This document shows, one piece after another, positions 27,288 to 30,056 of a stretch of DNA of 35,602 nucleotides. Location: contig NZ_NEDJ01000033.1 in assembly GCF_002114285.1 (NCBI RefSeq), forward strand, positions 1 through 35,602. The letters run 5' to 3'. Each line of letters begins with the position of its first letter. Within the stretch, counting starts at the first letter, position 1. The position numbers and the translations under genes were made by a program. Source of the DNA: Halorubrum ezzemoulense DSM 17463 (GTDB taxonomy: Archaea; Halobacteriota; Halobacteria; Halobacteriales; Haloferacaceae). The notes under the pieces were generated by a model. That model had not been told where the DNA came from, made no database searches, and saw only the letters and a list, made by a program, of their open reading frames with translations.

Positions 27288-27947
27288 TCAGCGGACCCGG
27301 TACCCGTCTGCGTCGCGGGCGACCACGCCCACGTCGGAGAGCCGCCGCAGGGCGTCCGCGACCGTCGACTCGCGCGCGCCGACCTCGTCGGCGACCGCCG
27401 CGGGCGTGCCGTCGGTCTCGACCACCGCGGCGATGACGGTCGCGAAGAAGCGGCTGTCGGCCTGCCCGCCGAGCCGCTCGTCGATCTCGGCGAGCGTGTC
27501 CTCGACGCGGCCCTGGACCCACCGCTGGGCGAGCGAGAGCTCCCGGTCGAGGTCTTGGAGGCGGGTGAACTCCTCCGCGAGCTCCGCGAGGTCGCCGGTC
27601 GTGCCCGACCCGTCGGGGCCCTCGATCGAGAGGTGCGGACAGCGACCGGACATGTCGAGGCTGTTCTTCGCCGGGTACGCGCTCTTCGCGCCGAAGCCGT
27701 ACGGCGAGACGCTCACCTCCAGCCGGAGGCTGCGCGCGATCCGGAAGTACTTCCGCCGCTGGTCGTCCGTCGTCGACTCGACGAGCCCGGCCTCCTCCAG
27801 CTTCCGCAGGTGGTCGATCACCGCCTTCGGGCTCACGTCCAGGTACTCCGAGATCTCCGTGACGTAACACGGCTTGGTGGCGAGAAGCCGGAGGATGCGC
27901 CGCCGGTTCTCGTTGCCGAGGAGATCGAGCAGTACCGCGGAGTCCAT
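27288..27947 (-). CDS. ArsR-type winged-helix transcriptional regulator with two DNA-binding-like domains
   Basis: This 219-residue protein has an N-terminal ArsR-like winged helix (about 5-70): LLGNENRRRILRLLATKPCYVTEISEYLDVSPKAVIDHL, with the recognition helix at SPKAVIDHLRKLEEAGLV. The middle (about 120-165) is helical and heptad-like, probably a dimer helix. The C-terminus (about 178-219) is a second predicted helix-turn-helix (TPAAVADEVGARESTVADALRRLSDVGVV). The ligand is unknown. It is divergent from cofH across 223 bp, with its own TATA box (27971-27979) giving a leaderless start at the ATG at 27947. It could therefore control itself or cofH. Confidence 0.85.
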   Translation of the reverse strand: MDSAVLLDLLGNENRRRILRLLATKPCYVTEISEYLDVSPKAVIDHLRKLEEAGLVESTTDDQRRKYFRIARSLRLEVSVSPYGFGAKSAYPAKNSLDMSGRCPHLSIEGPDGSGTTGDLAELAEEFTRLQDLDRELSLAQRWVQGRVEDTLAEIDERLGGQADSRFFATVIAAVVETDGTPAAVADEVGARESTVADALRRLSDVGVVARDADGYRVR

Positions 27948-28170: not shown

Positions 28171-29628
28171 ATGAGTTCGGGGGGCAGTTCCGGCGCGAGC
28201 GGATCGAGCGGAGGCGGAGAGGGCGGGACCGTGAGCGGCGCGGAGGAGTTCGACTTCGCCGCGCCCGCGACCGACCAGTCGTTCGAGAACGCGCTCGCGA
28301 AGGCCCGCGACGGCGCTCGGCTGACGGTCGACGACGCCACCGAACTGCTCGCCACCGGCACGGGGGCGGCCGGGATCGACCCCGTCCGCAAGGAGGCGGT
28401 GTTAGAGGCCGCCGACCGGCGCCGGCGCGAGGAGGTGGGCGACGAGGTCACCTTCGTCGCCAACCTGAACAACAACGTCACCACCGCGTGTAACACCGGC
28501 TGCCTGTTCTGTAACTTCAAGGACTCCGCGCACGCGTTCGAGGCAGACAGCGACGTCGAGCACGCGGGGTTCACCAAGCCGCCCGCCGAGTCGCGCGCGG
28601 TCGTCGAAGACGCCCTCGACATGGGGATCTACGAGGTATGCTCCGTCTCGGGGCTCCACCCCGCGTTCGCGCTGAACGAGGAACATCACGAGATCCTCGC
28701 CGCGCACGACGACCCCGCGAGCGAGGTGAACTACAAGCCGCCAGAGCGGTACGCGACCGACCCGGGCACCTACGTCGAGCAGTTGGACGCGATGTCGGTC
28801 GGCGGCGTCCACCTCCACTCGATGACCCCGGAGGAAGCGTATCACGCCTCTCGGGGCACCGATTGGGAGTACGAGTCTGTGTACCGCGAGCTGGCGGCCG
28901 CCGGGCTCGACTCCGCACCGGGCACCGCCGCCGAGATCCTCGTCGACGAGGTCCGCGACGTGATCTGTCCGGGGAAGATCCGCACCGACGACTGGGTGGC
29001 GGCGATGGAGGGCGCGGCCGCCGCCGGCCTCGACGTCACCTCGACGATGATGTACGGCCACGTCGAGACGGTCGCGCACCGCGCGCAACACCTGAAGGTG
29101 ATCCGGGACCTCCAAGACCGCACGGGCGCGATCACGGAGTTCGTTCCGCTCTCCTTCATCCACCAGAACACCCCGCTCTACCGGCGCGGCGTCGTCGACT
29201 CCGGCCCCTCGCACGCCGAGGACGAGCTCGTGGTCGCGGTCGCGCGGCTCTTCTTAGACAACGTCGATCACGTCCAGGCGTCGTGGGTGAAGTCGGGCGA
29301 CGCCCACGGGCTCAAACTCCTCAACTGCGGCGCGGACGACTTCATGGGCACCATCCTCTCGGAGGAGATCACCAGCCGCGCGGGCGGCGAGTACGGCGAG
29401 TACCGCTCGTTCGACGACTACGTCGAGATGATCACGGCGATCGGCCGGACCCCGGTCGAGCGCTCGACCGACTACCGGACCCGGCGCCGGATCGACCCCG
29501 ACGACGGGCCGCACGGCCCGCGTCTCGGCCCCCGCGCCGACGGGACCCCACTGCTCGCGAACCGCTCGTCCGACGGCGGACGCGGCGGCGGCGCGGTCGG
29601 AACGCCGCCGGCCGACGCCGACGACTGA
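28171..29628 (+). CDS. cofH: FO synthase subunit CofH (coenzyme F420 biosynthesis)
   Basis: This 485-residue radical SAM protein has CNTGCLFCNF (Cys107, Cys111, Cys114) preceded by FVANLNNNVTTA. The CofH-type segments are YEVCSVSGLHPAFALNEEHH, VHLHSMTPEEAYHASRG, TSTMMYGHVET and VPLSFIHQNTPLY. It transfers the 4-hydroxybenzyl group of tyrosine to 5-amino-6-(D-ribitylamino)uracil, and CofG then closes the FO ring. The family core is about 370 residues. This copy has a Gly/Ser-rich N-terminal tail (about 1-20) and a polar C-terminal extension (about 440-485). The start is the ATG at 28171 by its TATA box. cofG is not in the window; a perfect hairpin follows the stop. Confidence 0.93.
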   Translation: MSSGGSSGASGSSGGGEGGTVSGAEEFDFAAPATDQSFENALAKARDGARLTVDDATELLATGTGAAGIDPVRKEAVLEAADRRRREEVGDEVTFVANLNNNVTTACNTGCLFCNFKDSAHAFEADSDVEHAGFTKPPAESRAVVEDALDMGIYEVCSVSGLHPAFALNEEHHEILAAHDDPASEVNYKPPERYATDPGTYVEQLDAMSVGGVHLHSMTPEEAYHASRGTDWEYESVYRELAAAGLDSAPGTAAEILVDEVRDVICPGKIRTDDWVAAMEGAAAAGLDVTSTMMYGHVETVAHRAQHLKVIRDLQDRTGAITEFVPLSFIHQNTPLYRRGVVDSGPSHAEDELVVAVARLFLDNVDHVQASWVKSGDAHGLKLLNCGADDFMGTILSEEITSRAGGEYGEYRSFDDYVEMITAIGRTPVERSTDYRTRRRIDPDDGPHGPRLGPRADGTPLLANRSSDGGRGGGAVGTPPADADD

Positions 29629-29648
29629 ACCGATCCCGACGGATCGGT
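29629..29648 (+). terminator. Perfect hairpin directly after the cofH stop codon
   Basis: ACCGATCC (29629-29636) pairs with GGATCGGT (29641-29648) around the loop CGAC. The eight-base-pair stem begins with the base after the TGA. There is no strong T tract, so it may be a terminator-associated or mRNA-stabilising hairpin rather than a classic terminator. Confidence 0.45.
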
Positions 29649-29714
29649 TAGCGGCCGAACACGTTCCGCCGGACCCCTGGCGACTCTCATCGAGTGGGAA
29701 CCCCCGGTACGCCC

Positions 29715-29722
29715 TTTATTAT
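29715..29722 (+). promoter_or_regulatory. TATA box of the winged-helix gene at 29745
   Basis: TTTATTAT is centred about 27 nt before the ATG at 29745. Its last bases overlap an alternative upstream ATG (29721), which argues that 29745 is the true leaderless start. Confidence 0.55.
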
Positions 29723-29723
29723 G

Positions 29724-29743
29724 TCACACGTCACCACGTGTGA
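29724..29743 (+). promoter_or_regulatory. Perfect 20-bp palindromic operator candidate over the start site
   Basis: TCACACGT (29724-29731), spacer CACC, then ACGTGTGA (29736-29743) form a perfect 8+8 inverted repeat. It lies between the TATA box and the start codon at 29745. A dimeric repressor bound here would cover the transcription start, and the encoded winged-helix protein is the natural suspect for autoregulation. Confidence 0.5.
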
Positions 29744-29744
29744 G

Positions 29745-30056
29745 ATGACCGCACCCGACGCACAGCCGGTCGGCCGCTTGGGAGAGAGCGACGGCGACGG
29801 CCGCGGAGAGAGCCTCGACGCGCCCTCGCTGACGCGCTCCGACGAGCGGCTGTTGGCGTACCTCGACGACGTGGGGACGGACTACCCGGCCTTCGTCGCG
29901 AGCAACACGGGACTGTACGCCGACCACGTCGAGTCGCGGCTGGAGGCGCTCGCGGCCGCGGGGCTCGTCGAGCGCGTGACCGGAGAGACCGTCTACCGTC
30001 TCACCGACGCGGGGCGGGCGGCGCTCCGCGACGACTGCCCGCGCTGGTCGGACTGA
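29745..30056 (+). CDS. Small winged-helix protein, probable transcriptional regulator
   Basis: This 103-residue protein has a polar acidic N-terminus (about 1-32) and a compact winged helix at about 33-95. The elements are LTRSDERLLAYLDDVGTDYP, AFVASNTGLYADHVESRLEALAAAGLVERV (the helix-turn-helix with LEALAAAGLV ending) and TVYRLTDAGRAALRDD (the wing and last helix). This is the common haloarchaeal small winged-HTH type. I chose the ATG at 29745 because the TATA box at 29715-29722 gives leaderless spacing. An ATG at 29721 would add eight residues but lies within the promoter. It converges with hmgA, 33 bp away. Confidence 0.78.
   Translation: MTAPDAQPVGRLGESDGDGRGESLDAPSLTRSDERLLAYLDDVGTDYPAFVASNTGLYADHVESRLEALAAAGLVERVTGETVYRLTDAGRAALRDDCPRWSD

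Follow-up and report, generated by a model that had tools for sequence, protein, structure and literature searches.

The window, a stretch of 35,602 nucleotides of Halorubrum ezzemoulense DSM 17463, carries a gene for a 103-residue protein (P0001) that lies downstream of cofH and is convergent with hmgA. Four sequence elements are found between the end of cofH and the ATG of this gene: a stem-loop dyad, an imperfect inverted repeat, a TATA-like element and a palindrome (Table 1). Taking the ATG (29745-29747) as position 0, the TATA-like element spans -30 to -23 and the palindrome -21 to -2, and a single base, G29744, separates the latter from the start codon. The sequence confirms what a previous sequence-only reading had described, namely a mismatch-free palindrome that fills the gap between TATA box and ATG and ends one base before the ATG. 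After one mismatch the palindrome extends by two outer pairs, giving arms of 11 nt (29721-29731 and 29736-29746) that are 91% complementary. The stem-loop dyad is possibly the 3′ end signal of cofH and does not belong to the candidate operator.

Table 1. Features at the cofH-hmgA locus, in coordinates of the window
Feature	Sequence	Position	Strand	Remarks
Stem-loop dyad	AACCGATCC-CGAC-GGATCGGTT	29628-29649	none	overlaps the final base of the cofH stop codon
Upstream inverted repeat	TCTCA-TCGAG-TGGGA	29685-29699	none	precedes the TATA box; one pair mismatched; within CTCTCATCGAGTGGGAAC (29684-29701)
TATA-like element	TTTATTAT	29715-29722	+	middle about 27 nt upstream of the ATG
Candidate operator palindrome	TCACACGT-CACC-ACGTGTGA	29724-29743	none	8+4+8, zero mismatches
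Palindrome, left arm	TCACACGT	29724-29731		
Palindrome, spacer	CACC	29732-29735		
Palindrome, right arm	ACGTGTGA	29736-29743		
Gene of the 103-residue winged-helix DUF2250 protein (P0001)		29745-30056	+	presumed self-regulator

P0001 matches DUF2250 (PF10007) with 31.1 bits, above the Pfam gathering cut-off of 24.4, and none of its 12 Pfam matches (up to E 1) is a MarR model. It shares phrog_2440 (E 7.2e-12) with RepR (E 2.4e-23), the repressor of the Halobacterium phage phiH, and a profile comparison of the two proteins with hhalign gave an E-value of 1.7e-6 with 28% identity over 67 columns. The protein used singly found nothing at E 0.01 by tblastn in a phage collection, had no convincing match in PADLOC (best E 0.013) and reached only 0.03 and 0.042 as best E-values among solved structures. 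The AlphaFold2 model (mean pLDDT 78.1, pTM 0.64) has a disordered start and a winged helix at about residues 31 to 90, where pLDDT is about 90 or more. Foldseek placed AspA bound to DNA first (5k5q, E 7.1e-4), followed by MarR proteins from 1.3e-3 and by the PhiH1 repressor-like structure 3b73 (6.6e-3), and VIA placed MarR proteins at the top (Z 13.1) and AspA (4rs8) at Z 11.4, with an rmsd of 2.0 over 70 aligned residues. Altogether, the DUF2250 match, the profile shared with RepR and the fold model with its Foldseek matches support the earlier identification of the product as a winged-helix protein, and they place it among the relatives of a phage repressor.

Three known systems resemble this arrangement in part. 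First, RepR is, like P0001, a small haloarchaeal protein of phrog_2440, and a passage of PMC6471424 terms it a coliphage-like repressor of lytic genes. P0001 differs from it by an identity of only 28% and by its chromosomal gene, which stands between cofH and hmgA with no lysogeny module; moreover, the two Pfam matches of RepR do not include DUF2250. No palindrome comparable to that of the window was found in the 341 bases searched upstream of repR, where the longest exact arms measure 7 nt. Second, AspA of the Sulfolobus plasmid pNOB8 (4rs8, 5k5q) provides the best Foldseek match to the P0001 model. A review (PMC5120986) describes AspA as a dimeric winged-helix protein whose binding site is a 23-bp palindrome upstream of the aspA gene; according to the same source, it is a plasmid segregation protein encoded beside parB and parA and it spreads along DNA. 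Unlike aspA, the gene of P0001 is not flanked by par genes, its neighbours being cofH and hmgA in the window and in 38 of the 40 Halorubrum loci. The sequence similarity between AspA and P0001 is insignificant (E 0.043), and VIA ranks MarR proteins above AspA. Third, the MarR-family autorepressors have the winged-helix fold found in the P0001 model. MarR proteins are dimers that repress from palindromic operators, and their dimerisation domains have long flanking helices. The P0001 model differs from them in having no such helices, and the resemblance is one of fold only.

In haloarchaea, a TATA box about 27 nt before an ATG points to a transcription start at or adjoining this ATG. From this spacing we infer a leaderless start for the 103-residue gene. 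The phiH phage record shows the same layout, with the first base of repR given as the start of its transcript. The position of the start bears on two other readings of the palindrome. In one of them, the palindrome would form an RNA hairpin, UCACACGU-CACC-ACGUGUGA, in a 5′ leader and hide the start codon. As RNA, positions 29715-29775 fold at -21.3 kcal/mol (z = -2.4), and 3 of 200 shuffles fold equally well, but a TATA box at -30 to -23 would leave the palindrome outside the RNA and most orthologs have not kept the symmetry, so that we regard such a hairpin as very improbable. In the other, the palindrome would lie inside an N-terminal coding extension read from an in-frame NTG at -24. Such a codon (ATG, GTG or TTG) is present at -24 in 29 of 31 aligned orthologs, and none of the 31 has an in-frame stop in -24 to -1. 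However, a start at -24 would fall within the TATA box or immediately after it. In clade A, the group of orthologs defined below, conservation is moreover highest at third codon positions, opposite to the pattern of coding constraint. The entropies of the three codon positions over -24 to -1 are 0.62/0.53/0.25 in clade A and mixed in group B (0.59/0.96/0.64), against 0.21/0.22/0.55 in the core of the gene. These data make a coding extension scarcely credible.

The sequence-only reading also held that so long a palindrome was improbable by chance at this place. We found that this is true of the place and not of the length. The window contains 24 perfect dyads with 8-bp arms and spacers of 0 to 8, compared with 24.1 +/- 4.2 in 20 dinucleotide shuffles; since such dyads are equally frequent in shuffled sequence, the length of the palindrome is no evidence by itself. 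The probability of finding such a dyad within the 46-nt promoter stretch 29705-29750 is 0.0056 (5000 shuffles). What is unusual about the palindrome is its place and its conservation, rather than its length.

Within the genus, the gene is present in 40 of 52 genomes, that of the window included, and no ortholog was found at E 1e-8 in the other 12 (for example G001, G005 and G016). These 12 genomes also have none of the three promoter patterns that were searched for, gene and element being missing together. The order cofH - gene - hmgA is found at 38 of the 40 loci, the exceptions being one with hmgA and no cofH (L050) and one at a contig end with neither (L057). A gap-free alignment from TATA box to ATG could be made for 31 of the 40 loci, own included, and in all 31 the spacing of these two elements is identical. 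They comprise 17 loci of clade A and 14 of group B, two sets drawn by eye. Clade A is supported in the protein tree (96/94), its deeper lines being G019, G000 together with H. coriense, and G006; group B does not resolve in this tree and was grouped by type of promoter, rather than being a proven clade. Nine loci that are divergent, shifted or truncated (L030, L041, L050, L052-L057) were left out of the gap-free counts, and seven of them were scored for palindrome pairs (L052 and L056 were not), with 1 to 3 pairs each.

The two arms of the palindrome are conserved very differently. Of the 17 clade-A orthologs, 14 have an unaltered right arm (ACGTGTGA), and mean identity to the window among the 16 others of this clade is 95% for the right arm, 72% for the left arm and 83% for the spacer (79% for the TATA stretch, 84% for the upstream repeat and 44% for -100 to -66). 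When the two orthologs with the most altered right arm are omitted, the values become 99% for the right arm and 73% for the left. These comparisons support a constraint at the level of DNA on the stretch from TATA box to ATG in one Halorubrum clade. The symmetry itself is much less widespread. All eight pairs are kept in three of 38 scored orthologs and seven pairs in three more; all six belong to clade A, where the remaining 11 orthologs have 2 to 6 pairs (two of them only 2), so that 14 of 17 have at least one broken pair. In 97 genomes the exact palindrome occurs in three (the window, G019 and G006), always at the 103-residue gene. In G006 all 16 arm bases are kept while two of the four spacer bases are changed. 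The group-B promoters carry a different, non-palindromic element close to GGTANNCRTTANCA in the same place, with 2 to 6 pairs on the palindrome axis; one of them, G044, has six of eight pairs on this axis in other letters. Judged from these alignments, perfect symmetry is lineage-specific. The conservation upstream of orthologs on which the sequence-only reading had proposed to check the palindrome is found in clade A for the right arm and the element, perfect symmetry being limited to three species and group B having another element, and the absence from orthologous promoters that it had named as contrary evidence is what most orthologs present for the perfect palindrome. In H. coriense (L024 / L086), the reading frame breaks at about residue 83, yet the promoter element is kept with seven of eight pairs.

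This asymmetric conservation is compatible with another reading, in which the right arm (CACGTGTGAG) would be an asymmetric half-site or part of a core-promoter or start-site element, and the perfect palindrome of three species would be coincidental. It is consistent with the loss of symmetry in most orthologs, with the number of 8-bp dyads in shuffles and with the rank of the palindrome axis among the dyad axes of the aligned promoters, which is only third in clade A (whether or not the three perfect species are counted) and only sixth for the group-B promoters. The local probability of 0.0056, the presence of at least seven of eight pairs in six of 17 clade-A orthologs, the unaltered arms around an altered spacer in G006 and the pairs kept in other letters in G044 argue against it, and we consider this explanation improbable. 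Across the 31 orthologs, pair coupling exceeds that of shuffles only weakly: in tests that make no correction for kinship, P < 0.05 was reached at 2 of 12 offsets.

Among all dyad axes in the clade-A alignment of promoters, the highest score belongs to that of the upstream inverted repeat, centred at -52.5. This repeat (TCYCA-N5-TGRGA) is kept in Halorubrum clade A and is weaker in group B. In Haloparvum sedimenti (L114), the region upstream of the TATA box reads TCCCG-N5-CGGGA, so that both members of a pair differ. The sequence CTCYCANNGANTGRGAAC of the upstream repeat has one exact place in the genome of the window; with up to two mismatches it was found there 6 times forward and 6 times in reverse, compared with 4 and 7 for the reversed control, and since these counts resemble the control, a regulon of the upstream repeat is unsupported. 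The repeat is a candidate upstream regulatory site, and its conservation suggests that at least one further factor acts on this promoter.

The link between palindrome and gene was examined by pattern searches. In the 3.6 Mb of the own genome, the palindrome pattern matches exactly at a single site; no site differs from it by one mismatch, one site differs by two and six differ by three, whereas the reversed control gave one site. When the flanks of the seven sites with two or three mismatches were inspected, none was clearly placed between a TATA box and a start; a GC3 filter applied to three of these loci retained ORFs in two (L002 and L003). A palindrome regulon in this genome was dropped, the near-matches showing no clear placement between TATA box and start, and the search for similar sites at promoters that had been proposed with the palindrome yielded no second site with at most one mismatch. 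Over the 52 Halorubrum genomes, all 11 sites of the clade-A pattern and nine of ten sites of the group-B pattern are at the 103-residue gene; both patterns were derived from these same promoters, and these counts inform only on the scarcity of sites elsewhere. In 145 haloarchaeal genomes, 16 exact TGTTATRTGGTANCA sites were found, 11 of them directly before a homolog of the gene, and none with the reversed control, in a test that is partly circular in that several of the scored promoters supplied the motif. The remaining five are located at other genes; two of them (L163 and L165, genomes G157 and G066, match near 1500) stand just before genes for universal stress proteins (Pfam Usp).

These searches also bear on the possibility that a different dedicated regulator uses the palindrome as its operator, in which case the DUF2250 protein would be the regulated product and would act elsewhere. 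The conserved upstream repeat, with the additional factor that it suggests, fits this possibility. It would nevertheless be unusual for a separate regulator to have only one close site genome-wide, and a site that stands almost exclusively before the gene of a DNA-binding protein fits autoregulation better; we judge the involvement of another regulator to be unlikely.

The explanation that we favour, and consider more likely than not, is that the palindrome acts as operator in an autoregulatory loop, in which initiation would be blocked at the gene's own promoter. This reading is based on the order of the elements, on the DNA-level constraint and on the link between site and gene. The 103-residue winged-helix protein would bind the palindrome as a dimer, with one subunit on each arm, the centres of the arms being 12 bp apart, or about one helical turn. 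Such a dimer would cover -21 to -2 of its own presumably leaderless gene, just behind the TATA box and up to the start point, and could keep RNA polymerase from loading or from starting, so that the level of the protein would stay low and self-limited. Dimerisation, binding by the gene's own product, repression and the leaderless start are what we infer from the promoter and the protein model. We count against this model that the perfect symmetry is confined to three related species, that the palindrome axis ranks low among the aligned promoters and pair coupling is weak, that the dyads of homologous promoters (below) are not significant, that five of the 16 cross-genus sites are at other genes and that the homologs tested with the cross-genus element fall short of the DUF2250 cut-off, so that their family link depends on the profile search.

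Outside Halorubrum, none of six genes tested, all with the TGTTATRTGGTANCA element, reaches the DUF2250 cut-off, and these genes are therefore described as homologs by profile search and not as DUF2250 genes. Twenty-nine homologous promoters were compared, 26 from other genera and three from divergent Halorubrum. Several promoters from other lineages look palindromic by eye, an impression not borne out by shuffles: the best dyads of the 29 promoters were not significant (P = 0.11), nor were those of the 26 from other genera (P = 0.10). The word TGGTANC is present in 11 of 25 homolog promoters, compared with at most 7 for the commonest word in 100 shuffled sets. The comparison thus retained a conserved sequence element, rather than symmetry.

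A broader proposal, which we put forward tentatively and would not yet favour, is that the gene and its homologs across Halobacteria represent an old and widely retained family of phage-type self-repressors with private operators between TATA box and start. Repressor and operator would have drifted together, yielding a natural series of co-evolved pairs, and the second upstream site (TCYCA-N5-TGRGA) would serve a partner factor. The operator would take the form of TGTTATRTGGTANCA in several families, of GGTANNCRTTANCA in Halorubrum group B and, in clade A, of a palindrome built around ACACGT-N4-ACGTGTGA.

The genomic context of the homologs is variable. At loci from other genera, cofH adjoins the gene in three of 18 (L059, L110 and L114), and the further neighbours differ among the nine that were read. 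We do not propose that the gene is functionally connected with cofactor F420 or hmgA, given that these neighbours are inconstant outside Halorubrum. Judging by eye from translations, two homologs from outside the family (L078 and L120) adjoin genes that resemble cytochrome oxidase subunits.

A full-text search of open-access papers found the name DUF2250 in only two, and in the title or abstract of neither, and among the matches listed for haloarchaeal winged-helix autoregulation, phiH and archaeal repressors, and Halorubrum palindromes, no title concerns the 103-residue gene. The palindrome is probably a fresh example of a common type of switch, the autoregulatory site, with no earlier description found in the open-access literature. 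If the proposed loop is correct, it would give a DUF2250 protein its first testable function, that of a self-repressing transcription factor, and provide an operator defined at the base level in culturable organisms. Moreover, the Halorubrum series, in which the element differs between related groups, would allow the joint change of repressor and operator to be tested in Archaea. A second winged-helix regulator gene, with an ArsR-type domain and HTH_Cmi2_C, lies on the other side of cofH in the window (27288-27947, minus strand).
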